Assembly: GCA_913031205.1 (NCBI GenBank)
Contig: CAJWEM010000008.1
Location: 1 to 38,068 of the forward strand
Length of the DNA stretch: 38,068 bases
From: an uncultured Gammaproteobacteria bacterium
GTDB lineage: Bacteria; Pseudomonadota; Gammaproteobacteria; Poriferisulfidales; GCA-002705445
Direction: 5' to 3'
The notes below the pieces were generated by a model. The model searched no databases and had not been told where the DNA came from. It saw only the letters and a program-made list of their open reading frames with translations. Positions 839 through 20,419 of this stretch are shown here, piece after piece (position 1 is the stretch's first letter; the number at the start of each line of letters is the position of its first letter). A program made the translations under genes and the position numbers.

Positions 839-889
839 ATTAGTATTCTCGAATATTCTAAAAAAAATAAATTTGCTTATTTCTTGTTT

Positions 890-917: not shown

Positions 918-950
918 AACACAGTATGAAAAGCATTGGGGCAAAGGATT

Positions 951-1436: not shown

Positions 1437-1440
1437 AGAA

Positions 1441-2808
1441 ATGAATAAACTAATTAAGACCATCCTAATATCTACAATTCTTTTATCGTCTTCTGTATTT
1501 TCAAATAATTCAAAGTTATTTAGTTCAGGAGTCCCCTCTTTAGCACCCATGCTAGAAAACGTGACCCCTGCCGTTGTTAATATTTATACAATAAGTGAGA
1601 GTGAGCAACGAAATCAACTAATTGATGACCCGTTTTTAAGAAAATTTTTTAATATTCCTAATCAGCAAAAATCACGAAAAAGAAATAGGTCTGGTTTGGG
1701 CTCTGGCGTAATAATCAATAGTAAAAAAGGATATGTTATTACAAATAATCATGTCATCGCAAAAGCAAAAGATATTAAAGTTAAACTTCACGACGGAAGA
1801 GAGTTTAAAGCAAAATTAGTTGGTGCAGATCCTGCATCTGATATTGCTATTATTCAAATCAAGCCAGAAAATTTGACAGCTATTAAGTTTTCAAACTCAG
1901 AAAAATTGAGAGTTGGGGATTTTGTTGTTGCTATAGGCAACCCATTTGGAATCGGGCAAACAGTTACATCTGGGATAGTCAGCGCTTTAGGAAGATCTGG
2001 ACTTGGTATCGAAGCTTATGAAAATTTCATACAAACTGATGCGTCAATAAACCCCGGTAATTCTGGTGGCGCCTTAGTCAATTTAAAAGGTCAGCTTGTT
2101 GGCATTAATACAGCCATTATCGGCTCAAGGGGAGCTTCAGCTGGAAGTGTGGGGATAGGTCTAGCTATTCCTGTAAATATGGCTCTAGACATTACTGATC
2201 AGTTGCTTAAGTATGGAGAGGTAAAAAGAGGTTATTTAGGAGTTTCTGCTCAAAATTTGACAGATGACCTTTCAAAAGCATTCGGAGTCGAAACAAACCG
2301 TGGAGCAATAATTACAAGAGTACAGAAAGATTCTCCTGCAGATTTATCAGGTATAAAAGTAGGAGATGTAGTAACAAAAATTAATAATAAAGCTATAGAA
2401 AATGCTGCATCTATGCGAAATAAAATTGGTCTTTTAAAAATTAATAGCACAATAACACTTCAAATTAACAGAAAAGGTAAAGTGTTAACAAAAAAAGTAC
2501 GTATTGTAGAACCTGATAAAGCGAAAATAAAGAATCTAAAATTAAATCCAAGATTATCAGGCGTTATATTCGGGGATATTAAAAAAAATATGCCAGAGTA
2601 TGGAAAAGTAAATGGTATAAAGATAATGAAAATGAGAAAGGACAGTAAAGCATTTTCAGTTGGCATCAGACCAAATGACATTGTTCTATCAATTAATAAT
2701 ATACCTGTTCAATCTTTAAAGGATTTGGAAATAGTTGCAAATAATAACGATGAACTTGTTCTTCATGTTCAAAGGCAAAATAGAACAGCTTTTATCTTAT
2801 TAAAATAA
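1441..2808 (+). CDS. degQ: Periplasmic serine protease, DegQ/DegP (HtrA) family
   Basis: This 455-residue HtrA-type protease acts in periplasmic protein quality control. Residues 1-21 form a signal peptide with a basic start and a hydrophobic core. The trypsin-like domain carries the triad His104 (TNNHVIAK), Asp134 (PASDIAII) and Ser208 (NPGNSGGA). Two PDZ domains follow, roughly 255-345 and 365-455. The length equals that of E. coli DegQ. The chosen ATG lies 8 nt after an AAGGA and directly follows the asparaginase stop; the frame is open 7 codons further upstream, but that would precede the signal peptide. DegP cannot be excluded by eye, but the shorter linker favours DegQ. Confidence 0.93.
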   Translation: MNKLIKTILISTILLSSSVFSNNSKLFSSGVPSLAPMLENVTPAVVNIYTISESEQRNQLIDDPFLRKFFNIPNQQKSRKRNRSGLGSGVIINSKKGYVITNNHVIAKAKDIKVKLHDGREFKAKLVGADPASDIAIIQIKPENLTAIKFSNSEKLRVGDFVVAIGNPFGIGQTVTSGIVSALGRSGLGIEAYENFIQTDASINPGNSGGALVNLKGQLVGINTAIIGSRGASAGSVGIGLAIPVNMALDITDQLLKYGEVKRGYLGVSAQNLTDDLSKAFGVETNRGAIITRVQKDSPADLSGIKVGDVVTKINNKAIENAASMRNKIGLLKINSTITLQINRKGKVLTKKVRIVEPDKAKIKNLKLNPRLSGVIFGDIKKNMPEYGKVNGIKIMKMRKDSKAFSVGIRPNDIVLSINNIPVQSLKDLEIVANNNDELVLHVQRQNRTAFILLK

Positions 2809-2809
2809 A

Positions 2810-3043
2810 TTAACCGCCAGTTATTGTAGGGAAAAATGCTATTTCGTCATTCTCCTTCAAAACATATTCGAAATTGGTGTGTTCAAAATTACATGCAGTA
2901 AATATTTTATATTTAAATTTGTCTAAATTTAGTTCGAAAAATAAATCTTGAATTGTTAGATTGGAATTTGGTAGGTCAAGAATCTCTTCTTTTTTACCCA
3001 TATCTTCCGAAAGTCTTGCCAAGTAAATTACTTTTATTTTCAT
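2810..3043 (-). CDS. moaD: Molybdopterin synthase small subunit MoaD
   Basis: This 77-residue ubiquitin-fold protein ends in TITGG. The terminal Gly-Gly is thiocarboxylated and donates sulfur to precursor Z during molybdopterin synthesis. The length is typical of MoaD (about 80). It converges with degQ, the stops being one base apart, and diverges from moaC over only 38 nt. The moaE partner subunit and moaA are not in this window. Confidence 0.85.
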   Translation of the reverse strand: MKIKVIYLARLSEDMGKKEEILDLPNSNLTIQDLFFELNLDKFKYKIFTACNFEHTNFEYVLKENDEIAFFPTITGG

Positions 3044-3081
3044 ATTTGATACACTATAAGCAATAATATAAATATTAACTT

Positions 3082-3564
3082 ATGAAGAAGAATCTTACAC
3101 ATTTTACTAAATCCGGTAATGCTCAAATGGTTGATGTTCAATCAAAGGATATCACAGAGAGAATAGCTGTAGCCAGTGGGAAAATATATATGTCTTCAGC
3201 ATCCTTAATTAAAATTAAAGAGGGTGGGCATAAAAAAGGTGATGTTTTAGGCGTTGCGAGAATAGCTGGTATAACTGCTGCCAAAAAAACCGCGGATTTA
3301 ATACCCTTATGCCATAACATTAATTTATCATCAGTAAATATTGATTTTAAGATTAATAAGTCAAAAAAATATGTTGAGTGCATTGCAAATGTTAAATCTA
3401 CAGGAAAAACTGGTGTTGAAATGGAGGCATTAACTGCAGTTCAAATCAGCCTACTCACAATATATGATATGTGTAAATCTATTGACAAAGGAATGGTTAT
3501 TTCGGAGATAAAACTTGAGTTAAAAAAAGGCGGTGCTTCTGGTGAGTGGAAAAGATCAAAATAA
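3082..3564 (+). CDS. moaC: Cyclic pyranopterin monophosphate synthase MoaC
   Basis: This 160-residue protein is the usual size for MoaC, which converts the MoaA product to cyclic pyranopterin monophosphate in molybdenum cofactor synthesis. The family signatures are unmistakable: MVDVQSKDIT near the start, KGDVLGVARIAGI, the LIPLCHNI block with the conserved Cys-His, and the GVEMEALTAV segment. Its 3' end overlaps the mutY frame. It is divergent from moaD, so a shared promoter region of under 40 nt would serve both. Confidence 0.95.
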   Translation: MKKNLTHFTKSGNAQMVDVQSKDITERIAVASGKIYMSSASLIKIKEGGHKKGDVLGVARIAGITAAKKTADLIPLCHNINLSSVNIDFKINKSKKYVECIANVKSTGKTGVEMEALTAVQISLLTIYDMCKSIDKGMVISEIKLELKKGGASGEWKRSK

Positions 3565-4627
3565 AGAGTATAGAAATTTTTCTAAGAATTTAATTTTATG
3601 GCAAAAGGACTTTGGTCGCCATAATCTACCATGGCAAAAGCAAACCAATCCCTATAGAGTCTGGATTTCTGAAATAATGCTACAACAAACTCAAGTAAAA
3701 ACTGTACTGCCATTTTTTGAAAAGTTTATGAAAAAGTATCCAGATATTAAAGCTCTTTCGAAATCTAAGATTGAAGACGTATTTGAGCTTTGGACTGGGT
3801 TAGGATATTACAGGAGAGCAGAAAATATATATAAATCATCTCAAATTATAAGAAATAAGCACAACCTAATTTTTCCAAGCACTTTTGAGGAAATCATAAA
3901 TTTACCAGGTATTGGAAGATCTACAGCTGGAGCGATATTATCTCTAGCTTTTAATAAGAGATATGCCATTCTAGATGGAAATGTTAAAAGAGTTTTAGAA
4001 AGATACTTTGCAATTAAAGCAGAAAAAAATATAGATAAGGAACTATGGGAATTCTCAGAGAATTTACTTCCAAAAGATAAGAATAATATTTATAGTCAAG
4101 CAATTATGGACCTTGGCGCTACAATTTGCACAAAGAAAACACCTGTCTGTGAAAAATGTCCAGTAAGCCTCGATTGTAAATCTTTAAAATTTGACTTAAC
4201 AAATGTAATCCCCATCAAGAGAAAAAAAATAATTAAAAAAGAAAAAGACTTGAATTATTTATTAGTTGTTAAAAACAAAAACTTAGTACTAATGCAAAAG
4301 AATCCTAGTAAAGGTATTTGGGCAAACTTATGGACTTTCTTAAATTTTAAAACAAGAGACGACTGTAAGAAATACTTAAAAAAAATAAATTTAACTCCGA
4401 ATATTTATAATTACGCTTCAATACAGCATAATTTAACTCATATGAAATTAAACATAAATATTTATAGGATTGATGTTAAGAATTATCCAATTTCTGAGGA
4501 ATTCTATTGGAAAAATATTTATGATAACATTGCTACAGCTAAGCCGTTTGTAGAAATTATTAAAAAACTTACTGAGGAATTAGAAAATGAGAACAGTCCA
4601 TTGTTCAAAGTTAAAAAAGGAACTTGA
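3542..4627 (+). CDS. mutY: A/G-specific adenine DNA glycosylase MutY
   Basis: This enzyme removes adenine mispaired with 8-oxoguanine. From GTG 3542 it is 361 residues, close to E. coli MutY (350). Visible parts are Glu44 in the EIMLQQTQV motif (general acid), the helix-hairpin-helix [10 protein letters not shown] at 121-130, catalytic Asp145 in ILDGNVKRV, and a 4Fe-4S cluster as Cys196-x6-Cys-x2-Cys-x5-Cys212. The C-terminal NUDIX-like domain reads 8-oxoG. No ATG is available. GTG at 3533 or 3542 are both possible; 3542 sits better behind AAGG at 3527-3530. It overlaps moaC by 23 nt and yggX by 41 nt. Confidence 0.93.
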
Positions 4628-4850
4628 GGGTTTAGAAAGACCCACCTATCCAGGAGAAATTGGCAAAAGAATCTTCGAAAACATCTCGAAAGAGGCTTGG
4701 GCCCTTTGGCTAAAGCATATGACGATGCTAATCAACGAGTATAGACTTACTCCTATAGAACCTAAGGCTAGGACCTTTCTTGAGGAAGAAATGGAAAAGT
4801 TTCTTTTCGGAGAGGGATCTGAAGTGCCAAAAGAATTTAAACCTGAATAA
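4587..4850 (+). CDS. yggX: Fe(2+)-trafficking protein YggX
   Basis: This 87-residue protein is very close to E. coli YggX (91). It has the N-terminal Cys (VHCSKL), the [10 protein letters not shown] block, [11 protein letters not shown] and TMLINE, and the acidic [11 protein letters not shown] helix. YggX protects iron-sulfur proteins from oxidative damage and may carry iron. The gene lies inside the end of mutY by 41 nt. The mutY-yggX pairing is conserved in gammaproteobacteria and makes sense because MutY carries a 4Fe-4S cluster. It converges with blh, leaving only 11 nt between stops. Confidence 0.95.
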
Positions 4851-4861
4851 AAACTAGTCCA

Positions 4862-5758
4862 CTATCTTTTTGAGGGAATCATATTAAATATCATATGAGG
4901 AAGAGTCAAGCATGCGAGTAAAATAAAAATAAATTTTATTATAGATTTACTAATTGATTCGCCCAAATAATTAGACATTAACATAACAAAAGCTGTAGAA
5001 AAAAATAGTGACGAAATTACTATCAAAAATAAGAAGCCTTTTGTTGAAAAATTACTTGGAACATTTCTTGAAACATAGATAGACTCTAAAAAATGTTTAA
5101 TAGAATGCGAGAAACAAAAATATAATATGAATGATATTAATGGCGGAAGAAGAATAAAATTTGTTAAATAAATAAGACTCTCCACTTTACCAAAAGCGTT
5201 TTCATTTTTCCCAAATAAAATATGAAAAACAGAAAGAATAATAAATAATGCCTTTTGAGTATATGAAAAGGAGAAGGTAGATAAATCATATCCTACTAAG
5301 ATAGAGAATAGATGGCTTACTTGATCATAATGAAACAGTATTGGGGAAAACACAATAATAATCCCACGAATTATCATATTTATATCATAAACAATATGGT
5401 CTGATTTATTTAAATAGTTGTATTCCTCGTATCCAAAATGATATGAAGCAATTAAAAGAAAGAAAATTAAAGCTATCCCAGGAAACTTTATCCAAATAAG
5501 AAAATAAATCATAGAAATTAAAACATATAGAACAATAAAATATATTAACCAAAGTTCTGAAAATTTCTTTAATAATTTTTTCCCAACTGAAAAATCAAAG
5601 AAACCATGAGGAATACCAATCAAAGTAACAAGAAAAAATAAAACGTAACTTTGTGATTTTAAATCTAAATTTATATTATTTAGAAAAAATATGACCAAAC
5701 TCGTTATACTTAAAAAAATAAAAAAATTTCTTCTTAACTTATCTAATTTATTGATCAT
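4862..5758 (-). CDS. blh: Beta-carotene 15,15'-dioxygenase (Brp/Blh family)
   Basis: This integral membrane enzyme cleaves beta-carotene into two retinal molecules, supplying the chromophore for the proteorhodopsin. The 298 residues are mostly hydrophobic with several membrane spans. Conserved histidines that should bind iron are visible at 51 (GIPHGFFDF), 107 (SYHFGYEE), 218 and 222 (FSHSIKH), plus His288 (LPHMIF). It is the last gene of the crtI-crtB-crtY-blh set. Its ATG overlaps the crtY stop as ATGA. The coding sequence is notably more AT-rich than the rhodopsin gene. Confidence 0.92.
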   Translation of the reverse strand: MINKLDKLRRNFFIFLSITSLVIFFLNNINLDLKSQSYVLFFLVTLIGIPHGFFDFSVGKKLLKKFSELWLIYFIVLYVLISMIYFLIWIKFPGIALIFFLLIASYHFGYEEYNYLNKSDHIVYDINMIIRGIIIVFSPILFHYDQVSHLFSILVGYDLSTFSFSYTQKALFIILSVFHILFGKNENAFGKVESLIYLTNFILLPPLISFILYFCFSHSIKHFLESIYVSRNVPSNFSTKGFLFLIVISSLFFSTAFVMLMSNYLGESISKSIIKFIFILLACLTLPHMIFNMIPSKR

Positions 5759-6891
5759 TTTTTTACTATCTTTATGAATGAGTATTTCAAAAATATTTTT
5801 TTTGGGAGTAATAGTATTATCTTCACTATATCAATAATACTCGGAATATCACTTAAAAATCTAATTTGAGCATCATTATTATTGGATGAAAAAAGCTTTA
5901 TTAATGCATTTTTCATTTGTCTTGGTTCTTCGTTTACGATTTTTAAAAATACTTCATCCATTTTCCTTAAGATATATGAATGATAATTTTTTTTAATTTT
6001 TCTTCTTTTTGATATGATATCTGGTAAATGATTAATTATATTATCAACTTGCTTTTGAATATTTATAAAAGTATATCCTGTACTGGCGCGCGTGGCACCC
6101 GAAAAAGAACCAATTTTCGTTATACTTTTTGTTGATGAATTTTTTATATTTGCATCCATAGGAATTGATCCATATTCAGTCTTTCTAATTTTAAAATTTG
6201 ATTGGCTGTAATTTTCTTTCACATATTCTTCGATATACTTTTTATCTAAATACTGGTCCTCTTTTTCTTGTGAAAAATAAGTTGATTCTATTAGAGCTTC
6301 TCTTTTCGAAAAAGGCAGAAGATAAATAAAGTGGAATTTGTCTTCAATTCCTGAAAATTCCATAAACATTGGCTTCTCATCATCGAAAATATCTTCTTCG
6401 GATTCTACATATGCTCCAAAAAATTGCTGCCACATGGATACTTTTATATTTTCAGGTCTACTGTCAAAAACATGTTTACACTTTAATTCATGATCTTTTG
6501 TCTTAACTATTACTTCTGATTTATTTGTCGATAAACTTTTAACTTTAGATGATGAAATAAAATTAATATTATCATTTTTATCTATTAAATTTAAGATAAA
6601 ATTATTAAAAACATGTGAGTCTAAAGATTTATATTTATATTTCTTGCAATTTATATTAACTAAAGAATTTTTATTTTTTATAACTAAGCTTTCCCATTCT
6701 TTTTTTATTATATGGTCATAAGGTGTTTCATAGGTGTCCCAAAATGACCACAGCTTATTTTTCAAATTTATATCAGCACTTGACTCAAGAATGCAAACTT
6801 TATAATTTTTTCCAACTAGTCTATGAGCTAAACTTAAACCTGCGCACCCTGCTCCAATTATTACTAAATCGTACTCACTTTTCGTTAACAT
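5755..6891 (-). CDS. crtY: Lycopene beta-cyclase (CrtY type)
   Basis: This 378-residue flavoprotein-like enzyme cyclises lycopene to beta-carotene. An N-terminal Rossmann signature IIGAGCAGLS (residues 11-20) is followed by the cyclase blocks WQQFFGAYVES and, near residues 265-275, GATRASTGYTFINI. These fit the bacterial CrtY group better than the plant-type CrtL group. It overlaps crtB by 17 nt upstream and blh by 4 nt downstream, indicating translational coupling. The C-terminal portion is divergent and rich in Ile/Lys, like the rest of this AT-rich operon. Confidence 0.93.
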   Translation of the reverse strand: MLTKSEYDLVIIGAGCAGLSLAHRLVGKNYKVCILESSADINLKNKLWSFWDTYETPYDHIIKKEWESLVIKNKNSLVNINCKKYKYKSLDSHVFNNFILNLIDKNDNINFISSSKVKSLSTNKSEVIVKTKDHELKCKHVFDSRPENIKVSMWQQFFGAYVESEEDIFDDEKPMFMEFSGIEDKFHFIYLLPFSKREALIESTYFSQEKEDQYLDKKYIEEYVKENYSQSNFKIRKTEYGSIPMDANIKNSSTKSITKIGSFSGATRASTGYTFINIQKQVDNIINHLPDIISKRRKIKKNYHSYILRKMDEVFLKIVNEEPRQMKNALIKLFSSNNNDAQIRFLSDIPSIIDIVKIILLLPKKIFLKYSFIKIVKK

Positions 6892-7741
6892 TAATCATAC
6901 CTTTTAGATTCTCATGCAAATAAGGGTTATGTGCTTTTCTATATACTGGAATAATAAAAAAAATTATGAATTCAAGTAATGTTCTTGCGATGATAAAAAA
7001 TTTTTCGTGATTCTTTATGTAAATATTCTCTTCTAAAAATTTTGTGCCTGAACGCTTTATTTTTAATCCTATGGCTTCGTATATTCTTAAGGCAACTAAT
7101 ATTGAGAGTCTAGATTTTATAGGGATATGTCGAAATCCGTTCAATGAACTCTTATAATAAATTTCAGATTTAAGCAAAATCTTATCCACCTCCCGCTTTA
7201 TCTTTAAATTATCTTCATAGGTTTTTGTACTCAAAGTTTCTTCTGAAATATCAGTGTCTTCAGGTAAGTATATTCTTTGATTATTAAAGTCTTGAATAAT
7301 ATCTCTAGATATATTTGTTAACTGCATCGCAATACCTAGATCTATCGCATAGAAATTGGCCTCCTCATTTTCAATTTTTAAAGCTTTGGTCATCATCAGC
7401 CCAACAACACCGGCTACTCTATAGCAGTACCTTAAAAGCTCTTTATTATTCTTATATCTTTTAAAATTTATATCTGAATTTATACCTAAAATTAATTCGG
7501 AAATAATATCTTCGCTTATTCCATATGATTTTATAACTTCTTTTAATTTTTCTATTTCAGTCTTTACTTTATTTTCAGCGCCGGTGAATTTTAAGTTTTC
7601 ATCTACTAAATCATCATGTATTCTGCAGAAAGAGTAAATGTTAATAACTTTTTGTAATACTTCAGAAGATAAAAATCTACTTGCCCAAAAGAAGGATTTA
7701 CTACTTTTGTATATAATTTCTTTATTATCAATTAATCCCAT
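6875..7741 (-). CDS. crtB: 15-cis-phytoene synthase
   Basis: This 288-residue enzyme condenses two geranylgeranyl diphosphates to phytoene. Both aspartate-rich metal motifs of the squalene/phytoene synthase family are present: DDLVD at 43-47 and the second motif NISRDIIQDF with Asp147 and Asp151. They are followed by the typical QRIYLP. The start overlaps the end of crtI by 14 nt. No GGPP synthase (crtE) accompanies it, so the substrate must come from an enzyme encoded elsewhere. Confidence 0.94.
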   Translation of the reverse strand: MGLIDNKEIIYKSSKSFFWASRFLSSEVLQKVINIYSFCRIHDDLVDENLKFTGAENKVKTEIEKLKEVIKSYGISEDIISELILGINSDINFKRYKNNKELLRYCYRVAGVVGLMMTKALKIENEEANFYAIDLGIAMQLTNISRDIIQDFNNQRIYLPEDTDISEETLSTKTYEDNLKIKREVDKILLKSEIYYKSSLNGFRHIPIKSRLSILVALRIYEAIGLKIKRSGTKFLEENIYIKNHEKFFIIARTLLEFIIFFIIPVYRKAHNPYLHENLKGMINVNEK

Positions 7742-9200
7742 AGTCTCTTAGTATAAGCTTCTCAGTAACTTTTGCTGTTGAAATAACTCCGGGGACCCCT
7801 GCACCAGGATGAGTACTCGCGCCTACAAAATATAAACCATTTGTTTCTTTCGCTTTGTTACCATATCTAAAGTAAGCTGATTGGGTGAATACAGGTTGTA
7901 TTCCAAAACCACTTCCAGCGTATGTATTTAAATCATTTTCAAAGTAATCAGGCGTAATAAAAAAACTGTCGACAATGCTATTTGATAAATCAGGCATTAT
8001 CTTTTCTTGTAGATTATTGATTATTATATTTGCCAACTCATCGCCTTTATTTTCCCATTCGATATTGCTCAAATTATTTGGAACAGGAGCAAGAACATAA
8101 AAAGTATCGTGACCATTTTGTATCATTGACGGGTCAGTTGCTCCAGGTCTATGTAAGTAAAGGCTAGGATCATTAACAAATATCTTCTTATTAAAAATAT
8201 CATTAAGTAATTCATAGTGTCTTCTACTAAATACAATGGTATGGTGTTTTACATCATCATAGATTTTTTTTGTAGCAAAATACAAAACAAATAAACTCAT
8301 TGAATGCTTTAGGTTGAATTTGTTTGATATTTTTTTTGGTTTGAATCCTAGTAAGTTCTTATAGGTATATGTAGGATCTGAGTTACAAACAACCAAATCA
8401 CAATTAATCATGCCTTTAGATGTATCGATGCCAATTACCTTGCCATTCTTTGTAATAATTTTTTTTGCCTCAGTATCTTTTTTTATTTCTATATCTTTTT
8501 TTGCAAACAGGTTCTCAAGACCGTCTACAATTTTTCCAGTTCCGCCCTCTGAGTAATGTACGCCCCATTTCCACTCAAGATATTGAATTAATAAATATAT
8601 AGAAGTTGTTGAATAAGGATTTCCTCCTACTAAAAGAGGGTGCATGCTAAGCGCTTCGTTTAAATTTTTGTCGTTTAAATATTTATCAACTGTTTTATAA
8701 ACCGATCGATCAAATCTAATTTTCATTAGTTCGGGTAAATGTTTGATCATGCTAAAAATCGACTCAAAAGGCACATCCGATAACTCAGTAAATCCTTTAT
8801 TGAATATTCTTTTGCTATGCTTTAGTAATTTTATGTAAGCTTTTGCTTTTTTGATGCCATATTTAGATTTTATCTCATGGGCGGTTGAGATTAATTTATC
8901 GCCATAATCGATATACTCGCCGCTATCAAATAAAAATCTATACCATGGTTTTACAGGGAGTAAATTTACATAATTAGTAAAGTCTTCATTATGTATTGAA
9001 AATAATTCTTCAATTAAGTAAGGAGCAGTTATTACTGTTGGGCCAGCATCATACTTATAACCATTATGAATAAAGGTCCTTGCTCTACCACCTAAATCTG
9101 CTTGTTTCTCAATTAGAGTAACTGCAAAGCCCTTGGCTTTTAACCTTGAAGCAATTGAAAGGCCTCCAAAGCCAGATCCTACTACCACAACTTTTTTCAT
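7728..9200 (-). CDS. crtI: Phytoene desaturase CrtI
   Basis: This 490-residue FAD-dependent enzyme introduces the double bonds that convert phytoene to lycopene. The FAD-binding VVGSGFGGLS lies at residues 6-15, followed by the LGGRARTF and YDAGPTVI blocks. At the C-terminus is the family signature LYFVGASTHPGAGVPG. Length and motifs are those of bacterial CrtI. An AGGA about 6 nt ahead of the ATG (9206-9210 on the opposite strand) serves as ribosome binding site. It lies immediately behind the terminator that follows proteorhodopsin, so its expression may depend on read-through. Confidence 0.95.
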   Translation of the reverse strand: MKKVVVVGSGFGGLSIASRLKAKGFAVTLIEKQADLGGRARTFIHNGYKYDAGPTVITAPYLIEELFSIHNEDFTNYVNLLPVKPWYRFLFDSGEYIDYGDKLISTAHEIKSKYGIKKAKAYIKLLKHSKRIFNKGFTELSDVPFESIFSMIKHLPELMKIRFDRSVYKTVDKYLNDKNLNEALSMHPLLVGGNPYSTTSIYLLIQYLEWKWGVHYSEGGTGKIVDGLENLFAKKDIEIKKDTEAKKIITKNGKVIGIDTSKGMINCDLVVCNSDPTYTYKNLLGFKPKKISNKFNLKHSMSLFVLYFATKKIYDDVKHHTIVFSRRHYELLNDIFNKKIFVNDPSLYLHRPGATDPSMIQNGHDTFYVLAPVPNNLSNIEWENKGDELANIIINNLQEKIMPDLSNSIVDSFFITPDYFENDLNTYAGSGFGIQPVFTQSAYFRYGNKAKETNGLYFVGASTHPGAGVPGVISTAKVTEKLILRDYGIN

Positions 9201-9215
9201 ATAAATCCTAAGAAT

Positions 9216-9247
9216 AAAAAAAGGCTCACTATTTACAGCGAGCCTTT
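9216..9247 (-). terminator. Intrinsic terminator between proteorhodopsin and crtI
   Basis: Read on the minus strand, AAAGGCTC and GAGCCTTT form a perfect 8-bp stem around a 12-nt loop, immediately followed by a run of seven T. This is a textbook Rho-independent terminator, placed 22 nt after the rhodopsin stop and about 15 nt before the crtI start. It would favour a short, abundant rhodopsin mRNA over the longer mRNA that includes the carotenoid genes. Confidence 0.85.
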
Positions 9248-9268
9248 AATCTAACGTTTTGAACTGCT

Positions 9269-10045
9269 TTAAGCAGATTCGTTAACAGCAGCTGCCCATA
9301 TAATCACACCAAATGCGATTTTGTTTACAAAGTCAGCTAAGTTGTAAACGATGTTTACTGTTGCTGGGTCTGTTCCACCAGCTAGGTAACCTAAGAAGTA
9401 TCCTAGTGGGTAAATTGCCCAACCTACTGTAACAATTAAACGCATTGCACCGAAAGCTGTTTGACAAGCTGCGCTTCCGCTTGCTGCGTTTGCTTTACTT
9501 GCTTCACCAGCAAAGATTTCATACAGAATGTATAACCAACCAATCATCCCGATGATGAAACCTGTCATCGCAGACATCATGCCTGCTTCACCAGCGAATC
9601 CACCGATAAGCATTACAAGAGTACCAATTAATAGTCTCCAGAATATGCCGGCAGAAACTGCTGTTACAGCAGCTAAGATTAAGTAGAACTCAATCATTTG
9701 TAGAGGTACTGTTAGTAACCAGTCAATGTATCTAAGTACTGTTGGTGAATCACCAGTAGATACCCATACTTCTCTCATGTAGAAGTAATGAACCGCGGCT
9801 ATTAAAGTAACTAAGCCTACAACTGTTAATGATGTTTTCCATTTGGCGCTTACTCTGTCACGTTCAATAAGAAAGAAAACAGTTGATGCAACCATTGCAA
9901 TAGAAATGATCCAGAAAGTAACTCCAACCGTATCATCAGGACTTAAACCACTACTGTGGCCACCTGCTAGCGCTATTGACGGTAAAGAGATTACTACTAG
10001 AAATGATGCAAAAAGTTTTTTGCTAAAATCTAATAATTTAATCAT
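9269..10045 (-). CDS. Proteorhodopsin, blue-light-tuned proton pump
   Basis: This 258-residue seven-helix retinal protein should pump protons out of the cell in light. Residues 1-27 look like a cleavable signal peptide ending ALA. Helix C reads RYIDWLLTVPLQMIEF. It gives Asp108 (acceptor), Thr112 and Glu119 (donor), equivalent to D97/T101/E108 of the reference protein, so the DTE pump motif is intact. His86 matches His75, and Lys242 (FVNKIAF) is the retinal Schiff-base lysine. Gln116 occupies the spectral-tuning position 105, where Gln gives blue and Leu green absorption. ATG 10045 has GAGGA at 10055-10059; a 21-codon upstream extension lacks support. Codon use is less AT-biased than its neighbours. 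Confidence 0.97.
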   Translation of the reverse strand: MIKLLDFSKKLFASFLVVISLPSIALAGGHSSGLSPDDTVGVTFWIISIAMVASTVFFLIERDRVSAKWKTSLTVVGLVTLIAAVHYFYMREVWVSTGDSPTVLRYIDWLLTVPLQMIEFYLILAAVTAVSAGIFWRLLIGTLVMLIGGFAGEAGMMSAMTGFIIGMIGWLYILYEIFAGEASKANAASGSAACQTAFGAMRLIVTVGWAIYPLGYFLGYLAGGTDPATVNIVYNLADFVNKIAFGVIIWAAAVNESA

Positions 10046-10342
10046 ATCGTTTTTTCCTCGAGTTATTATAGATATATTTTTTCTAACTACATTTGTTATT
10101 CTATTCATTTCAGTTAAAAAATAAACCCTTAATTACTCAGAAATTTTTTGTATTTTTTGATTTATAAGATATTGAAAAAATTGATTTTTTTTTCAAAAAT
10201 TTGTGAAATTTTTAATTAAAATATAATGATAATCTAATATTGTGATAAATATGGATAACTTTCCTCAAATCACAGCTACCCAATTAAAGTTAGACTTCAT
10301 CATTCAATACATTAGTGTATACTCACTTTTTCGAAATATTTT
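10046..10342. promoter_or_regulatory. Divergent promoter region of proteorhodopsin and tRNA-Phe
   Basis: This 297-nt gene-free stretch separates the rhodopsin (leftward) from tRNA-Phe (rightward). The part from about 10142 to 10213 holds a series of A/T tracts spaced at roughly helical intervals. A TATAAA at 10161-10166 on the minus strand could be a rhodopsin -10 box, but no good -35 lies at the usual distance. For the tRNA, TATACT at 10318-10323 is a convincing -10 box with a weak TTCATC about 16 nt upstream. I see no open reading frame of note here. Confidence 0.5.
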
Positions 10343-10418
10343 GGCTTGGTAGCTCAGTTGGTAGAGCAGTGGACTGAAAATCCTCGTGTCGGCAGTTCAA
10401 TTCTGCCCCAAGCCACCA
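10343..10418 (+). tRNA. tRNA-Phe (anticodon GAA)
   Basis: This 76-nt cloverleaf has a 7-bp acceptor stem GGCTTGG/CCAAGCC, D-arm GCTC...GAGC, anticodon loop CTGAAAA with anticodon GAA, T-arm GGCAG-TTCAATT-CTGCC, and an encoded CCA end. The anticodon stem GTGGA/TCCTC contains a U28-U42 mismatch; all other stems pair fully. It sits alone between the proteorhodopsin promoter region and the DUF2237/MFS genes. Confidence 0.96.
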
Positions 10419-10427
10419 GCTTTTTCA

Positions 10428-10805
10428 CTAAATTAAATCAATTGCATGCTTCTTAAGTATATCAATTTCAATAACTTCCAAAGCTAGCTCATTTGTACTC
10501 TTTGCAACGATTGGAGGTGCAACATTATCTCTTAAAGCCTCAAGCCAACGAAGCGCACAAACACACCACTTATCACCATCTTTTAAGCCAGGAAACGCGA
10601 ACTCTGGTCTCGGGGTTATTAAATCGTTTCCCTTCGTTTTTGAGTATTCTAAAAACTCATCCGTTACGATTGCGCAAACAGTGTGACTTCCAATATCATC
10701 TTTTAAAGTCTCACATGAGCCGTTTCTCAAAAAACCTGTCATTGTTTCTTTGCTGCAAGTTTCGATAACTTCTCCAAATATATTTTTATTAAATTTATCT
10801 GCCAT
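10428..10805 (-). CDS. DUF2237 family protein
   Basis: This 125-residue protein is a full-length member of the DUF2237 family of small cytoplasmic proteins of unknown function. Recognisable blocks are NIFGEVIETCS at the start, TGFLRNGSCET, the GSHTVCAIVTDEFL segment, and DGDKWCVCALRWLEAL with the conserved Trp-Cys. It overlaps the upstream MFS gene by 11 nt, so the two are probably co-transcribed. The reader should not infer enzymatic activity; nothing in the sequence shows one. Confidence 0.85.
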   Translation of the reverse strand: MADKFNKNIFGEVIETCSKETMTGFLRNGSCETLKDDIGSHTVCAIVTDEFLEYSKTKGNDLITPRPEFAFPGLKDGDKWCVCALRWLEALRDNVAPPIVAKSTNELALEVIEIDILKKHAIDLI

Positions 10806-11982
10806 ATTTTCTAATTGTTAAAATTAATATCAATGTGGATAATAATATAGAAATTGATACAAATACAAAACTTGCCTCAATATTTATCAAACTTGATACT
10901 ATACCAAGTCCAAGAGCCCCAGTGGCATAACCAGTGTCTCTCCAAAATCTATAAATTCCAATTCCAGATGCTCTCCAACTGTCTTCACAATTATCATTTA
11001 CTGCTGAGCTTATTGATGGATAAAGTAAAGCCATTCCAATTCCAAGAATAAAACTGCATATCAACCACGAAGTTAATTCCAAGCTTAATAGGCATACGGG
11101 CAATGTGATTGCACAAAGAAGCATCCCAGTAATAATCAATAGGTTTCTGCCAACAAAATCAGAATATAGACCTGAAAAAATTTGCATAACACCCCAAGTC
11201 ATAGCGTATGTTCCAACTATTAAACTAATCTCTATTAAAGTCATGCCATTATTAAACAAGTAAACTGGGAAAAATATCCAAATACATGTATCAATAAATT
11301 TCTCAACGTGTCCTGCTTGAGAATATGCAAAGAGTTTTTTATTTTTCCACGAAACATATAAGAACATATTTTCCGGATCATCTTTTTTTAAAATGTTTGC
11401 ATATTTTTTAGTATCCTCAATAAGAAAAATACAATACAAAAGCGCTATGAGTATAAAGATGGACGAAAACAAAAATAAAGCTATTTTAACGGTAAAGAGA
11501 GAGGTCATATAACTAACAAGTACACCTCCTATTGCTACGCCAAAATAACCTGAGAATTCATTTAATCCTACCGTAAAACCTCTTCTTTCGGTTTTTGTAA
11601 TATCAACACTTGATATTTGAGTTACAGACCAAGTCAAACCTTGGTTTATTCCAATGATGAATGTGGCTAAAATTATATAGTACCAGTTATCTGCGAAATA
11701 AATTATTAATGGCACTGGAAGTGCTATTAACCAGCCAATTAGAAGAACAGCCTTTCTATCATATTGATCGGCCAAAGTTCCAGCGAAATAATTTGCAATA
11801 CCCTTTACCAATCCAAAAGCTATAATGAATGTTGATAAAAATATAAATGAATCTTTCGGGACATTAAAAATACTCTCTGATAACGCGGGAATAGCTGTTC
11901 GAAATAAACCTAAAAGTATGCCAACAAACATTACCTGAAGTAGTAAATTTACTAAAAGAGAATATTTTTTTTCTGTTATCAT
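10795..11982 (-). CDS. Major facilitator superfamily transporter
   Basis: This 395-residue protein has about twelve hydrophobic segments and the MFS loop 2-3 motif as AGTLADQYDRKAVLLIG. A related motif occurs in the second half (FSGLYSDFVGRNLLII). These place it in the drug/metabolite efflux part of the superfamily. The substrate cannot be told from sequence. It overlaps DUF2237 downstream and diverges from the yrfG-like gene over only 34 nt. Its partner DUF2237 gene gives no clue to substrate. Confidence 0.85.
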   Translation of the reverse strand: MITEKKYSLLVNLLLQVMFVGILLGLFRTAIPALSESIFNVPKDSFIFLSTFIIAFGLVKGIANYFAGTLADQYDRKAVLLIGWLIALPVPLIIYFADNWYYIILATFIIGINQGLTWSVTQISSVDITKTERRGFTVGLNEFSGYFGVAIGGVLVSYMTSLFTVKIALFLFSSIFILIALLYCIFLIEDTKKYANILKKDDPENMFLYVSWKNKKLFAYSQAGHVEKFIDTCIWIFFPVYLFNNGMTLIEISLIVGTYAMTWGVMQIFSGLYSDFVGRNLLIITGMLLCAITLPVCLLSLELTSWLICSFILGIGMALLYPSISSAVNDNCEDSWRASGIGIYRFWRDTGYATGALGLGIVSSLINIEASFVFVSISILLSTLILILTIRKYGR

Positions 11983-12016
11983 ATTAATATTAAATTAATT
12001 TATATATATAGATTAG

Positions 12017-12676
12017 ATGAAATGGAACTCAATAGAAACGTTTTTTTTAGATATGGATGGAACTTTATTGGACCTTGCATTCGATAACTTTTTTTGGCAT
12101 GAACATTTACCAAAAATATATTCGGAATCAAAAAAAATTTCTTTTAATGCTGCAAAATCAGAGTTTGAGAGTATGTACAAAAAGAAGGAAAATACTATGC
12201 AGTGGTATTCTTTAAGACATTGGAGTGAAGTCCTTAAAATAGATTTACTATCAGAGCTTCTAATGACAAAAAATAAAATAAAAACGTTACCAAAAGCTAA
12301 GGGTTTTTTATCTTTACTAAAAAAAAATGATATTAAAGTTTTTCTATTAACAAACTGTCCAAGAGATATGCTTCATGTAAAGTTGAATCAAACTAAACTA
12401 TGGGGGTATTTTGATGAAATTGTATCCTCAGAGGATTTTAACTTTCCAAAAGAATCCATTGACTTTTGGGATGTATTAAACGAAAAGTATGAATATAATA
12501 ATGATACAACAGTTTTTTTAGATGACAGCAAAAACGTAATTGATTTTTCATTAAAACATGGATTAAGAAATGTTTTCTTAATAAGTAGCCCTGACTCAAG
12601 TAAAAAAGATCAAGATACTTTTGGTTATAAATCTATCAAAGGCGTGAACGAATTTAAAAAAATGATAACTAGTTAG
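12017..12676 (+). CDS. yrfG: HAD-family GMP/IMP nucleotidase, YrfG-like
   Basis: This 219-residue HAD phosphatase has motif I LDMDGTLLDL (nucleophile Asp12, Asp14), motif II LLTNCP, and motif III/IV FLDDSKNV. The stretch LLDLAFDNFFWHEHLP, with a following W-Y-S-L-R-H-W segment, closely resembles E. coli YrfG, which dephosphorylates GMP and IMP. The assignment to that subfamily rests on this resemblance and on length. Its 3' end overlaps the convergent SET-domain gene by 8 nt. Confidence 0.85.
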   Translation: MKWNSIETFFLDMDGTLLDLAFDNFFWHEHLPKIYSESKKISFNAAKSEFESMYKKKENTMQWYSLRHWSEVLKIDLLSELLMTKNKIKTLPKAKGFLSLLKKNDIKVFLLTNCPRDMLHVKLNQTKLWGYFDEIVSSEDFNFPKESIDFWDVLNEKYEYNNDTTVFLDDSKNVIDFSLKHGLRNVFLISSPDSSKKDQDTFGYKSIKGVNEFKKMITS

Positions 12677-13178
12677 CTTTCTTACAGTTTTTCACAAATC
12701 TTAATAAGTGTTTCTGAAGCTTTTTCCAATCATTTTCTGTAACTATAAAACCAACACATTTTCTTGACCCGCATTTGCACACATGGTCTCTAAAATCCTC
12801 GGGATCAAACGAAAATCCATAGTCATAAGTAAGTTCATCTCCTTTTCTTATATCTACGAAAGATCTAATCCATATTTTATCATCAATAATATCTGTGTCA
12901 CAATTTGGATTACATGAATGATTCATTAGCCTTGCTTTGTTATGTTGCACATTACCATCGATATCGTATTTATCATTTAATGTAAAAATATAAACTTGGC
13001 CCTCTTCTTTATTCTTTTGTGCTTTCTTAAGTTGAATTTCGGCGATTTTATCTGATTGTGCTTTTGTAATTTTTTTTCCAACATATTCAACAATGTTTGT
13101 TCCCGCTTTTATATGGCATTTCGCGAACAAACCTTTTCCATGTTTTTTTGAATTTTTTATAGTGTACAGCTTCTTCAT
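12669..13178 (-). CDS. SET-domain protein (putative protein lysine methyltransferase)
   Basis: This 169-residue protein is almost entirely a SET domain, the fold that moves a methyl group from SAM to lysine side chains. Key parts are the N-terminal GKGLFAK (15-20 region), NHSCNPNC at 86-93 (SAM and lysine pocket), YDYGF at 118-122 (catalytic Tyr), and a post-SET-like zinc motif Cys134-x-Cys136-x4-Cys141. I chose the ATG at 13178, behind AGGAG; the open frame upstream lies inside the DUF2384 gene. It starts 5 nt after that gene's stop, so both are one transcript. Substrate is unknown. Confidence 0.85.
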   Translation of the reverse strand: MKKLYTIKNSKKHGKGLFAKCHIKAGTNIVEYVGKKITKAQSDKIAEIQLKKAQKNKEEGQVYIFTLNDKYDIDGNVQHNKARLMNHSCNPNCDTDIIDDKIWIRSFVDIRKGDELTYDYGFSFDPEDFRDHVCKCGSRKCVGFIVTENDWKKLQKHLLRFVKNCKKAN

Positions 13179-13182
13179 ATAA

Positions 13183-13581
13183 TTAATTTTCTCCTGTTGA
13201 GTTCCAGGCAAAAGTAACATCTAACTCTGACCTTACTTTACATAATCCTTCAACACCTTCATTTAGTATTATTGCAAGCGGTGTTTCATTCTCAAACCGT
13301 CTATGCTGAGTTTTAAGCCACTTCTCAGCCATATTTGTATTTCTTGGGAAAGTTGTTCTTAAAGCATCAGAAATTCCAACGATATGGCTCAATCTTTTAA
13401 TTATCAAATCGTCCTTGGGAAATGCCTTAAGATTTCTATATTTATCTAGTTGTCTTTTTCTCGTTTGGTCGGACAAACCAAGAACGTTTACGGTTTCTTC
13501 CGTAGAAAGATTCCATCCATCTAAAACCTGCATTACTGTCTTGGTTATAAAGAGAAACTCTTCGTCAGTATAATCGTTCAT
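13183..13581 (-). CDS. DUF2384 (MbcA/ParS/Xre antitoxin C-terminal) domain protein
   Basis: This 132-residue protein combines an N-terminal helical part (LSTEETVNVLGLSDQTRKRQL, which resembles the HTH-containing half of Xre-type antitoxins) with a DUF2384 C-terminal segment (WLKTQHRRFENETPLAIIL then a short helix). Such proteins usually neutralise RES-domain NAD-consuming toxins encoded next to them. No RES gene is present here; the only partner is the SET-domain gene 4 nt downstream. It may therefore be a solitary regulator. It is divergent from the TerB-like gene. Confidence 0.75.
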   Translation of the reverse strand: MNDYTDEEFLFITKTVMQVLDGWNLSTEETVNVLGLSDQTRKRQLDKYRNLKAFPKDDLIIKRLSHIVGISDALRTTFPRNTNMAEKWLKTQHRRFENETPLAIILNEGVEGLCKVRSELDVTFAWNSTGEN

Positions 13582-13648
13582 AGTTTACCAAAAAAATTTA
13601 TGTTACTTTATATGTTAAATTGATAATTAGCAATAAGATAATATATTG

Positions 13649-13676
13649 TTGTATTGACATTTACTTAAAATATAAT
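13649..13676 (+). promoter_or_regulatory. Promoter of the TerB-like gene
   Basis: A perfect -10 TATAAT at 13671-13676 is preceded, 16 nt upstream, by TTGTAT at 13649-13654. A perfect TTGACA also lies at 13654-13659, but only 11 nt from the -10. Transcription would begin near 13683, leaving a leader of about 20 nt with an AAGGAG ribosome binding site. Confidence 0.55.
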
Positions 13677-13702
13677 TCATCAATCTAAAAAGGAGTAAAA
13701 AA

Positions 13703-14131
13703 TTGATAAGATTTATAAAAAAAATATTTTCTGCAAATGAAAAAGTTGATGAAGATATTGATGAGAATTTAGCATGCGCAATTTTACTTGTGGAAATAAG
13801 TTACTCAGATTTTGAAATTGATAAATCAGAAATTGAATCGATGACATATTTGTTCGAAAAAAATTTTAATCTTCCTAGAGAAAAATCAGAATGGTTGAGG
13901 GATAAAGCTCTTAATTTACATAAAGACACAAATTGTTTAAGACAATATATCAAAATCATAAATGAGAAATTTTCTAAAGATCAAAAAAGACAATTTATGA
14001 ATATGGCTTGGGAAATAGCTAGAGCTGATAATACAGTTGACAAACATGAAGAACATAGGATAAGAAAACTTTCTGAAATGCTATATATCGACCACAAGGA
14101 TTTCATTAAATCAAAAATTTCGACGAAATAG
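13703..14131 (+). CDS. TerB-like domain protein
   Basis: This 142-residue helical protein resembles the TerB family of stress-associated proteins. The first half has ACAILLVEISYSDFEIDKSE and the second MAWEIARADNTVDKHEEHRI. These are the paired acidic helix motifs with Asp/Glu thought to bind metal in TerB. The start codon is TTG at 13703: a strong AAGGAG (13690-13694) sits 8 nt before it and no ATG occurs until residue 47. It stands alone on the plus strand, with its own promoter. TerB proteins are linked to tellurite resistance and membrane stress; a specific role here is unknown. Confidence 0.75.
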   Translation: MIRFIKKIFSANEKVDEDIDENLACAILLVEISYSDFEIDKSEIESMTYLFEKNFNLPREKSEWLRDKALNLHKDTNCLRQYIKIINEKFSKDQKRQFMNMAWEIARADNTVDKHEEHRIRKLSEMLYIDHKDFIKSKISTK

Positions 14132-14731
14132 TCAGTTTTTTTTAAATCTATATAATGCGATTTCTCCAAAAAAATTGGGTAAAAAGTTCAAAAGCTTGTT
14201 TGAATCGTAATTGCTATTCAAAACCTTCTTATCAAGAATTGTAATACTTAAATCTTCACAAAGTCTCTCAAAATCTTTAAAAGTACAAAGATGAATGTTA
14301 GGAGTGTCAAACCAATTATTTGGCAAAGAATTAGAGATTGGCATTTTACCAAAAAGACCAAGCTGTAATCTATTTTTCCAATAACCCATGTTTGGAAATG
14401 TAACTATTCCTTCTTTGGCAATTCTTAGCATCTCTAAAATTATTTTGTCGGGATTTTTATTTTCTTGAAGAGCCTGCGTCATTACAGCGTAATCGAAAAA
14501 ATTTTGATCAAAATATTGACCCAGACCAGAATTAAAGTCAGCCTGTATTACGCTTATGTTCTTATTAATTGATTGCTGAACTTTATCAATATCTTTTTCA
14601 AAACCATAGCCTGAAACATTTTTATTTGTTCGCAGAAAATCAAGTAAGGTTGAATCTCCACAACCTAAATCAAGAACCGTGGAATCTTTTTGAATCCATT
14701 CAGATATAAATTTAAAGTCTTTTCTTTCCAT
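14132..14731 (-). CDS. metW: Methionine biosynthesis protein MetW
   Basis: This 199-residue SAM-methyltransferase-fold protein is full length for MetW. Motif I is VLDLGCGDSTLLDFL, followed by DYAVMTQALQ and the MetW-typical FPNMGYWKNRLQL and NLP-NNWFDTPNIH-CT block. MetW works with MetX in methionine synthesis, although its exact reaction is unsettled. It follows metX by 25 nt on the same strand and abuts the convergent TerB-like gene with no gap. It should share the SAM-controlled metX transcript. Confidence 0.93.
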   Translation of the reverse strand: MERKDFKFISEWIQKDSTVLDLGCGDSTLLDFLRTNKNVSGYGFEKDIDKVQQSINKNISVIQADFNSGLGQYFDQNFFDYAVMTQALQENKNPDKIILEMLRIAKEGIVTFPNMGYWKNRLQLGLFGKMPISNSLPNNWFDTPNIHLCTFKDFERLCEDLSITILDKKVLNSNYDSNKLLNFLPNFFGEIALYRFKKN

Positions 14732-14756
14732 AATATTTTCAAATAGTTTTTGTTAA

Positions 14757-15890
14757 CTAGCCTACATTCTCCATAAAATTACTTAAAACTTTTAAATAAT
14801 CTGGTATTGGCATTAAAAATGCATCGTGACCTTGGTTCGCCTCTATTTCTGCATAAGAGACGTTCTTCCTTGCTCTTACAAGAGACTTTACAATTTCATG
14901 TGATTTTGAAGATGAAAATCTCCAGTCACTTGTGAATGAAACTACTAGAAAGCGCGAATCAGTTTTTTCAAAAGCCAATGATAAATCACCATTAAAATCC
15001 GCGGCCGGATCAAAATAATCAAGGGCTTTTGTCATTAAGAGATAAGTGTTCGCATCGAATCGTTCTACAAAAGCTTGGGCTTGATACCTTAAATAACTTT
15101 CAACTTGAAAATCTACATCATAACCAAAATGTAATTTTCCTTCTCTTAGATCGCGCCCAAATTTTTGTCTCATCGAGTCGTCGGAGAGATATGTTATATG
15201 TCCTAACATTCTCGCTATGCTCAAACCTCTTTTTGGAATTACCCCATGATCATTATAACGACCATCGTGAAAATCTGGATCAGTAATGATTGCTTGTCTC
15301 GCAACCTCATTGAAGGCAATATTTTGAGCTGAGAGTTTTGCCGCGGCAGCAACAATAATTGAGTTTTTTATTTTTTCTGGATAACTAATTGCCCATTGTA
15401 AAGCTTGCATGCCGCCAAGACTTCCGCCAACGACACATGCCCAGCAGTTAATGCCAAGATAGTCCCCTAACAATTTTTGGCTATTGACCCAATCGTTAAC
15501 AGTGACAATTGGAAAATCTGGCCCAAACTCTTTTCCCGTTTTTTTATCTGTTGAGTTCGGTCCACTTGATCCTCTACAACCTCCTAAGTTATTTAATGAA
15601 ACAACAAAAAACTTATTTGTATCAAAAGGTTTTCCCGGTCCAATACATGAGTCCCACCAGCCTGGTTTTTTGTCGTCTTCATGATGATAACCCGCAGCAT
15701 GATGATCGCCAGAAAGAGCGTGGCATATTAGAATAGCATTACTTTTTTCTGAGTTTAAACTGCCATAAGTCTCGTATATTAGTTCGAAGCTATCTAGGAG
15801 CTTCCCACAGTCCAATCTTAGAGTTTCATTTATCTCAATAGTTTCTGGTTTTACTATACCAACTGAATTTTGTTTTAGTTTGCTATTCAT
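14757..15890 (-). CDS. metX: Homoserine O-acyltransferase MetX
   Basis: This 377-residue alpha/beta hydrolase-fold enzyme acylates homoserine, the first committed step of methionine synthesis. The nucleophile Ser157 lies in [13 protein letters not shown]; Asp322 (FTSDWRF) and His355 (QGHDAFL) complete the triad. [11 protein letters not shown] is the oxyanion block. In proteobacteria where metX is followed by metW, the acyl donor is usually succinyl-CoA rather than acetyl-CoA, so it may be a succinyltransferase. That cannot be settled from the motifs here. The leader carries a probable SAM-II riboswitch. The ribosome binding site (GUGGA, 6 nt upstream) is weak. Confidence 0.95.
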
Positions 15891-15949
15891 ATTTTATCCA
15901 CAATTTCAATTTGAAATCATGAATAAACAAAAGGGAATTTACGTTGCTT

Positions 15950-16006
15950 TATGATCTTCGCTTTAGCTGTATTTTCCCACCCGCAAGCTGACTTCAAATC
16001 GGTGTA
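15950..16006 (-). ncRNA. SAM-II riboswitch (SAM_alpha/metA type) in the metXW leader
   Basis: On the minus strand the RNA reads CACC-GAUUUG...GCUUGC-GGGUG...ACAGCUAAAGC. This matches the SAM-II layout piece by piece: P1 strands CACC (16001-16004) and GGUG (15978-15981); the conserved GAUUU directly after P1; UUGC before the 3' strand of P1; an A-rich segment; and the hallmark AGCUAAA (15962-15968). GCUU in the loop (15985-15988) can pair with AAGC (15960-15963) as the pseudoknot. It sits between a promoter and metX, the classic SAM-II target. Binding of SAM should lower metXW expression. P1 is short, and the aptamer ends about 60-65 nt before the ATG, farther than usual. Confidence 0.8.
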
Positions 16007-16011
16007 TTTGT

Positions 16012-16040
16012 AATATACTGTAATTTATAGAAATATACAA
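16012..16040 (-). promoter_or_regulatory. Promoter of metXW
   Basis: On the minus strand TTGTAT (16040-16035) and TATATT (16017-16012) are 17 nt apart. The predicted transcription start is near 16005, exactly at the 5' edge of the riboswitch. This coincidence supports both calls and separates metXW from the upstream yggT transcript. Confidence 0.55.
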
Positions 16041-16053
16041 ATAAGAAAGAAAT

Positions 16054-16614
16054 TTATCTGAGTAAAATATTGATAAAACTTTGAATGAAATATATTAATA
16101 TTAAAGCTATTATTACCGAGAAATCGATTATGCCAACAGAAGTTGGTATAAACCGCCTTATAAAAAATAAAATAGGATTTGATATCTGATAAATAATATC
16201 CAGAACTGGGTTTCTGTTGGATAGTGGTGATTGAACAAACCAACTTGATATCGCAAGAACTATAAATATTATTGTAAGAGCATTTAGAATACTAAAAATT
16301 GAACTCTTTATAGAATAGATAATTACCTTTTCAACGATCATATCATTTCCCAAAATTGTCCCATGAATATAAAAACTGGCAAAGTGACATAATAAAATAA
16401 CTATAAAGCTTGATAATTCAAATTTTCCAAAGTTTGGTATAAAAAAGAAAAAAGATTTTATTGGTCTAGTAATTTTTATTATTGATTGAGTAAGAGGATT
16501 AGATACGCTTGCATTACATAATGCCAAAAGAATTCTTAATGTAAATATTAAAACCAAAAATGAAAGAACTAAATCTGACGCAAAATAACCTAATTCGGAA
16601 AAAGAGTTTGACAT
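16054..16614 (-). CDS. yggT: YggT family integral membrane protein
   Basis: This 186-residue membrane protein has two copies of the YggT unit: hydrophobic segments followed by a SNPLTQ/IKITRPIKS half and by an ISNPILFFIRRFIP half. The double-unit length fits gammaproteobacterial YggT (about 190). The function is not well defined; homologues are linked to osmotic stress and to membrane protein assembly. It follows proC by 9 nt in the conserved yggS-proC-yggT order. The metX promoter begins just after its stop. Confidence 0.9.
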   Translation of the reverse strand: MSNSFSELGYFASDLVLSFLVLIFTLRILLALCNASVSNPLTQSIIKITRPIKSFFFFIPNFGKFELSSFIVILLCHFASFYIHGTILGNDMIVEKVIIYSIKSSIFSILNALTIIFIVLAISSWFVQSPLSNRNPVLDIIYQISNPILFFIRRFIPTSVGIIDFSVIIALILIYFIQSFINILLR

Positions 16615-16623
16615 TTATTCCAC

Positions 16624-18098: not shown

Positions 18099-18106
18099 AC
18101 AAGTTC

Positions 18107-18132
18107 TTTATTTATGAAAATTCGTAAATAAA
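18107..18132. repeat. AT-rich inverted repeat between pyrC-like gene and yggS
   Basis: TTTATTTA and TAAATAAA are perfect 8-nt inverted arms around a 10-nt spacer. They occupy nearly all of the short gap between these two genes. The T run lies before, not after, the hairpin in the direction of transcription, so this is not a standard terminator. It may act as an RNA end-stabilising hairpin or may just be a product of base composition. Confidence 0.4.
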
Positions 18133-18136
18133 AAAA

Positions 18137-20409: not shown

Positions 20410-20419
20410 AATTTACCTC

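Follow-up and report, generated by a model that had tools for sequence, protein, structure and literature searches.

Proteorhodopsin photosystem cassettes, in which the opsin gene is followed by crtI, crtB, crtY and blh, are known in marine bacteria. The absorption of these proteins depends on residue 105, described as a colour switch in PMC10807816. In this regard, PMC5864233 gives Q105 as the commonest type, accounting in the North Pacific gyre for about 80% of the proteorhodopsins at depths of 25-125 m, and mentions blue types affiliated with SUP05. A related issue was raised by Rusch et al. in 2007, who asked (PMC1821060) why blue and green tuning is lineage-restricted despite lateral transfer of proteorhodopsin and few colour-switch mutations. 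Here we describe a proteorhodopsin locus in a window of 38,068 nucleotides (the whole stretch of DNA analysed) from an uncultured gammaproteobacterium. What is worth following at this locus are colour alleles that do not track neighbour genes, an exceptional codon optimisation and an upstream element found only at the opsin. The gene and its immediate surroundings are arranged as follows:

4862..5758, minus strand: blh, beta-carotene 15,15'-dioxygenase (TIGR03753 162 bits, cut-off 95)
5755..6891, minus strand: crtY, lycopene cyclase (Lycopene_cycl 170 bits; TIGR01789 below cut-off)
6875..7741, minus strand: crtB, phytoene synthase (SQS_PSY 158 bits; equivalog models below their cut-offs)
7728..9200, minus strand: crtI, phytoene desaturase (TIGR02734 483 bits)
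9269..10045, minus strand: proteorhodopsin gene, 258 amino acids, DTE motif, Q at tuning position 105 (Pfam, alignment, structure matches)
10343..10418, plus strand: tRNA-Phe (gaa), opposite in strand to the opsin and upstream of it (conserved in sequence across 9 aligned genomes)

A preliminary description of this DNA had taken positions 9269-10045 for a proteorhodopsin, and the identification holds: the product matches Pfam Bac_rhodopsin with 158 bits (E 2.6e-46, cut-off 24.6), and its closest relatives in the PDB by sequence, 4jq6 and 4kly, are both blue proteorhodopsins. A model predicted from 17 sequences (pLDDT 78.8, pTM 0.75) retrieved proteorhodopsins and the related PsFAR/PsPR as top PDB matches in Foldseek, and aligned with the chains of 4kly at TM 0.78-0.81 by query length. 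Together with a type-1 rhodopsin domain and the seven-helix fold, alignment to green proteorhodopsin revealed H75, D97, T101, Q105, E108, D227 and K231, which in the numbering of the protein itself are H86, D108, T112, Q116, E119, D238 and K242. The Asp, Thr and Glu previously read in helix C as a pump motif are therefore confirmed as D97, T101 and E108, and so is the glutamine at position 105 that characterises blue proteorhodopsins, encoded here by CAA. No other rhodopsin was found in the genome to which the window belongs (908,312 bases, 93.6% complete). Counted from the most upstream ATG, the longest frame spans 9269..10108 on the minus strand. The start at 10045, as originally annotated, is the better one, because indels between genomes break the frame of the 21 preceding codons in relatives, the 5' end from this ATG is nearly invariant in DNA across them, and a GAGGA box precedes it.

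The four genes for retinal supply adjoin the opsin on the same strand, beginning 68 bases past its stop codon and overlapping each other end to start, while no crtE was recognised within the window. Altogether, the gene almost certainly encodes an ordinary, standard blue-absorbing proteorhodopsin, whose retinal would be made by the downstream genes, and in this sense it adds one more species to a well-known picture. The earlier proposal of a blue-tuned proton pump thus gains support from the DTE motif, from Q105 and from the retinal genes alongside, from which we infer colour and pumping by analogy with the family. According to the family scheme, light would isomerise the retinal bound to K231, the proton of the Schiff base would move to D97 (with H75) and then outwards, and E108 would re-protonate the Schiff base from the inside, with Q105 expected to shift absorption to about 490-500 nm. 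The genes crtB-crtI-crtY-blh directly downstream would supply the retinal, and probably form one transcript with the opsin under a strong promoter located before it, judging from the family. Finally, the proton gradient would add to what this streamlined gammaproteobacterium, in which no RuBisCO was detected, gains by oxidising sulfur (apr, dsr).

The region preceding the opsin contains a set of conserved short sequences:

10055..10059, minus strand: GAGGA, ribosome-binding-like box, 9 bases before the ATG (read from the sequence)
10098..10103, minus strand: TAGAAT, -10-like box with a putative promoter role, invariant in 9 aligned genomes (alignment)
10117..10134, minus strand: AATTAAGGGTTTATTTTT, 18 bases with a putative activator or promoter role, invariant in 9 aligned genomes (alignment)

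In the 9 aligned genomes AATTAAGGGTTTATTTTT ends 13 bases before TAGAAT, and the stretch around the GAGGA box reads ACTCGAGGA, shifted by the alignment in one of them (G004). The 16-mer TTAAGGGTTTATTTTT, which is the core of AATTAAGGGTTTATTTTT, occurs once per genome in all 10 opsin-bearing members of the genus, 78-89 bases before the opsin ATG, and is absent from the remaining member, G007; a reversed control pattern was found in 0 of the 11 genomes. Within the window, a search allowing up to 3 mismatches gave, apart from the exact copy, 6 sites against 3.8 expected, a chance number. Outside the genus, the best site in each of 76 rows, searched over upstream stretches of at most about 400 bases, had 3 or more mismatches (L031 and L128 among them are the same contig, and a few loci hold less upstream DNA), so that TTAAGGGTTTATTTTT looks genus-specific and its candidacy as a general marine element is discarded. 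The element is likely an opsin-specific promoter or activator site.

Codon usage sets the opsin apart from the rest of the locus. Its fraction of NNC codons is the highest of the 43 genes in the window (0.60, followed by S9 with 0.43 and L13 with 0.41), and it also tops the ranking of 126 ORFs from 118 kb of its own genome, where the longer frame reaches 0.55 and the next ORF 0.44, above an ORF with 0.39 that we take to be ATP synthase beta. Across the ten genus genomes with the gene, the fraction goes from 0.33 (G002) to 0.60. The opsins of the genus prefer AAC (0.79 vs 0.17 in neighbours), TAC (0.62 vs 0.20) and TTC (0.50 vs 0.15), as well as CGT (0.26 vs 0.05) and GGT (0.59 vs 0.35), whereas C-ending codons are fewer than in neighbours in the Ala, Gly, Val, Thr and Pro boxes (e.g. 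ACC 0.00 vs 0.08). This pattern is what translational selection would leave, and not what a GC-richer donor would. Beyond the genus, where the loci of other groups were hand-picked, mostly for long flanks, and group names come from record titles and tree reading, the opsin exceeded all its neighbours in 45 of 45 marine-clade loci (9/9 for the genus plus its sister genus, and 6/6, 12/12, 11/11 and 7/7), in contrast to 0/3 for Polaromonas and 1/5 for other loci labelled Comamonadaceae, Burkholderiales or Paucibacter, in all of which the neighbours are already high in NNC (median 0.50-0.55). Such a strong bias is a sign of high opsin expression, and predicts a very high one in a sulfur oxidizer. 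Among the literature matches listed there was no prior report of codon bias in proteorhodopsins, which is weak evidence of absence, as subscription papers were mostly outside the search.

Both colour types are found within the genus. An opsin is present in 10 of its 11 genomes, of which eight carry Q105 (blue: G000-G003, G006 and G008-G010, with the G008 gene split over two contigs and the Q of G009, which has masked letters, taken from the alignment) and two L105 (green: G004 and G005). In G007 (98% complete) the opsin was not found, and the neighbouring genes were not found there as orthologs either. In a wider context, an 84-row opsin tree built without column 105 implies a minimum of 4 changes between Q and L, of which starred branches enforce 2, although this is a quick tree with long branches that omits L067 (wrong frame), L014, L015, one copy per duplicated genome and L025 (Q105).

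The opsin DNA tree joins G004 with G005 (99/98) and G003 with G006 and G009 (97/96). In tests that were numerous, comprised 9-10 genomes and used clades named after the identity tables had been seen, both groups were rejected by the eight flanking genes joined (p 2.8e-5 and 0.017, respectively) and by the four carotenoid genes (p 0.02 and 0.002). The opsin, for its part, contradicts the carotenoid tree by rejecting G002+G005 (p 5e-7) and the flank tree by rejecting G002+G004 (p 3e-5), while its rejection of G002+G004+G005+G009 is less strong (p 0.01; 0.04 without the outgroup). On G000+G001+G010 (73/94, not starred) opsin and flanks concur. Among 15 single genes, the opsin is the only one grouping G004 with G005; degQ and metX, which lie on opposite sides of it, each group G002+G004, a clade that among single genes only the opsin and crtI reject. 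Since the flanks also reject the carotenoid-tree group G002+G005 (p 1.6e-4), crtI likewise has its own history, and exchange is not confined to the opsin. Several of these genomes are metagenome assemblies, where a conserved gene could join wrong contigs, a concern that is tempered by the agreement of degQ and metX across the opsin, and synonymous sites of the flanks are near saturation. The conflict between opsin and flanking genes suggests that the opsin was exchanged between species. On these grounds, and with a confidence that falls somewhat short of an even chance, we propose that the opsin is a swappable colour allele: homologous recombination would move it between species of the genus, independently of the carotenoid cassette and neighbours, and tuning by Q105 (CAA) or L105 (TTA) would follow the opsin genealogy and not the organism, in a gene that is the most codon-optimised seen in the genome and lies behind an opsin-only promoter element. 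No prior report of opsin-only recombination with colour change appeared among the literature matches listed, again weak evidence of absence given that subscription papers were mostly outside that search.

Exchange of the opsin has to be weighed against constraint alone, in which protein conservation plus codon or mRNA selection for very high expression keep opsin divergence low, no exchange takes place, and the odd tree results from noise or from convergence between proteins of the L105 and Q105 types. We regard this explanation as quite possible, if on the doubtful side, and several observations speak for it. Most neighbour genes, taken singly, lack the power to contradict the opsin tree, as G004+G005 is rejected by 5 of the other 14 (degQ, blh, crtI, Xre and metX) and not by 9, while G003+G006+G009 is rejected at 0.05 by none. 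Identity, as a mean of all pairs, climbs to 0.75-0.92 in the windows of the opsin CDS and drops directly beyond its stop codon, compared with 0.53-0.78 in intergenic windows other than those of the tRNA, and this rise and fall favours constraint, to which the strong NNC bias of the opsin can be added. Moreover, low synonymous divergence of the opsin is also seen in other groups. Within the genus, opsin pS relative to the genome of the window is 0.32-0.52 for seven other members (0.16 for the sister G001), compared with 0.57-0.86 in 19 neighbouring genes for the same seven, and in the 35 of 36 genus pairs with a neighbour median above 0.45 the opsin was below every neighbour in 31. Under the same criterion, and with loci hand-picked as above, it was below all neighbours in 11/13 pairs of mixed gammas (15 pairs in all), 38/48 of SAR116 (66), 32/34 of Pelagibacter (55), 14/14 of a HIMB59-like group (21) and 0/2 of Polaromonas (3).

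Other results are harder to explain by constraint alone. The genes for ribosomal proteins L13 and S9, metK, adk and the aprA fragment, for which high expression would be expected, do not show such a reduction, their pS being 0.47-0.85 in the five pairs other than G000-G001, in which the opsin has 0.35-0.52. Relative to the saturation expected from its own codon usage, codon mismatch in the opsin is equally reduced at 4-fold (0.67) and 2-fold (0.66) sites, in comparison with 0.89-1.07 for 15 neighbours, even though the NNC bias concerns 2-fold codons, and this equality favours a younger common ancestor of the opsin. Finally, third codon positions alone recover the same opsin groups with weaker support (83/75, not strong, for the two L105 species; 85/89 for the other) and reject G002+G004 (p 0.0024). 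Altogether, we read the data as strong selection on the opsin and exchange of alleles acting both, the two being not fully separated.

Uneven divergence, as recombination would give, is common here. When G000, the genome of the window, is compared with its sister G001, the segment that runs from metW to the aprA fragment (window 14132..38066) has pS values of 0.00-0.21, and the one from rph to TerB (119..14131) mostly 0.21-0.46, with the opsin (0.14) and DUF2237 (0.15) as low islands. The change between the two segments perhaps marks a recombination boundary near 14.1-14.7 kb. Around dsrA, in another region, pS goes from 0.07 to 0.37.

A different history, with the cassette recently inserted next to tRNA-Phe, seems very improbable. 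The tRNA gene does sit about 300 bases upstream of the opsin, followed by DUF2237 and an MFS transporter, and G007 has no match to opsin, blh or crtI. However, the order opsin-crtI-crtB-crtY-blh-mutY-moaC-degQ, the last three genes on the other strand, is identical in locus L031 of the sister genus and in 5/5 of the named contigs of the genus that have flanks of 8 kb, which indicates that the cassette is old in the family. Nor does G007 offer a clean empty site, as orthologs of the neighbours are missing there too (best matches elsewhere are mutY 30%, metX 34% and degQ 45%), and its lack of the cassette may be due to an assembly gap or a larger rearrangement. A phage origin was likewise discarded, with no match at E 1e-5 among 50,697 phage records. 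Also in this region, a SET-domain gene overlaps an Xre/ParS-type antitoxin-like gene (12669..13581, minus strand), both present in 8/8 other genus loci examined. A role other than proton pumping (sensory or flotillin-associated), or a carotenoid antenna of the xanthorhodopsin type, is scarcely credible, for although the flotillin-associated rhodopsin PsFAR (double mutant, 9r23) was the first structure match, the proton donor E108 and D97/T101 are retained, the genes next to the opsin serve retinal synthesis, none of those annotated in the window encodes a flotillin or a transducer, and F152 (green-proteorhodopsin numbering) replaces the helix-5 glycine that presumably opens the antenna site.

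The metabolic context of the standard proteorhodopsin proposed here comes from the end of the window:

37593..38066, minus strand: C-terminal part of aprA, 157 codons, truncated at the contig end (TIGR02061)

The aprA noted in the preliminary description is indeed present, as a fragment of 215 bits over profile positions 468-616 of TIGR02061 (37620..38066, minus strand), which stays below the whole-protein cut-off because the contig end cuts the gene. In its own genome aprA is found only as this fragment, whereas full genes above the curated cut-off occur in 9/11 genus members, and dsrA is above cut-off in 10/11, own genome included, giving the combination of aprA and dsrA expected of a dissimilatory sulfur oxidizer. 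The suggested pairing of sulfur oxidation with light energy is supported by these counts. The oligotrophic or offshore setting that was also suggested is no more than a possibility, Q105 being the most frequent type in any case. The RuBisCO large subunit was found in 0/11 genus genomes with a search that was positive in 5/14 control genomes, so Calvin-cycle carbon fixation is not indicated. The data fit a light-assisted sulfur-oxidizing heterotroph or mixotroph, where the direction of the sulfur pathway is presumed from the family and the carbon source is a conjecture. Adjoining aprA are genes for an AAA ATPase of the CbbQ/NorQ type and for a protein of 116 aa with no Pfam match (36285..37592, minus strand), kept in 5/5 other genus members examined despite no RuBisCO being found in the genus, and G009 has two full-length aprA genes above cut-off (contigs C8 and C17). 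The closest records with a name belong to uncultured genomes, labelled either Thiothrix sp. or Gammaproteobacteria.

With both colours in one genus, a conserved synteny and a conflicting opsin tree, the question of Rusch et al. becomes testable. If the exchange proposed above is general, colour tuning in marine proteorhodopsins would evolve as a module under strong selection that species can exchange. When compared with known systems, the locus resembles the marine proteorhodopsin cassette in having an opsin with adjacent carotenoid and retinal genes, and differs in that no crtE is recognised in the window and a genus-specific conserved element precedes the opsin. The blue proteorhodopsins Med12 BPR (4jq6) and HOT75 BPR (4kly and 4knf, solved as mutants) share with it the fold, the helix C Thr-Gln-Glu and the Schiff-base lysine; in structure alignments it is 54-61% identical to them, and it comes from an uncultured gammaproteobacterium bearing apr and dsr. 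At the level of the organism, the SUP05/Arctic96BD-19 (Thioglobus) group are likewise Gammaproteobacteria combining sulfur oxidation with proteorhodopsin, but the named relatives found here are labelled uncultured Thiothrix sp. and uncultured Gammaproteobacteria, and the genus has RuBisCO in none of its 11 genomes, whereas Arctic96BD-19 was reported with RuBisCO in PMC3463544.
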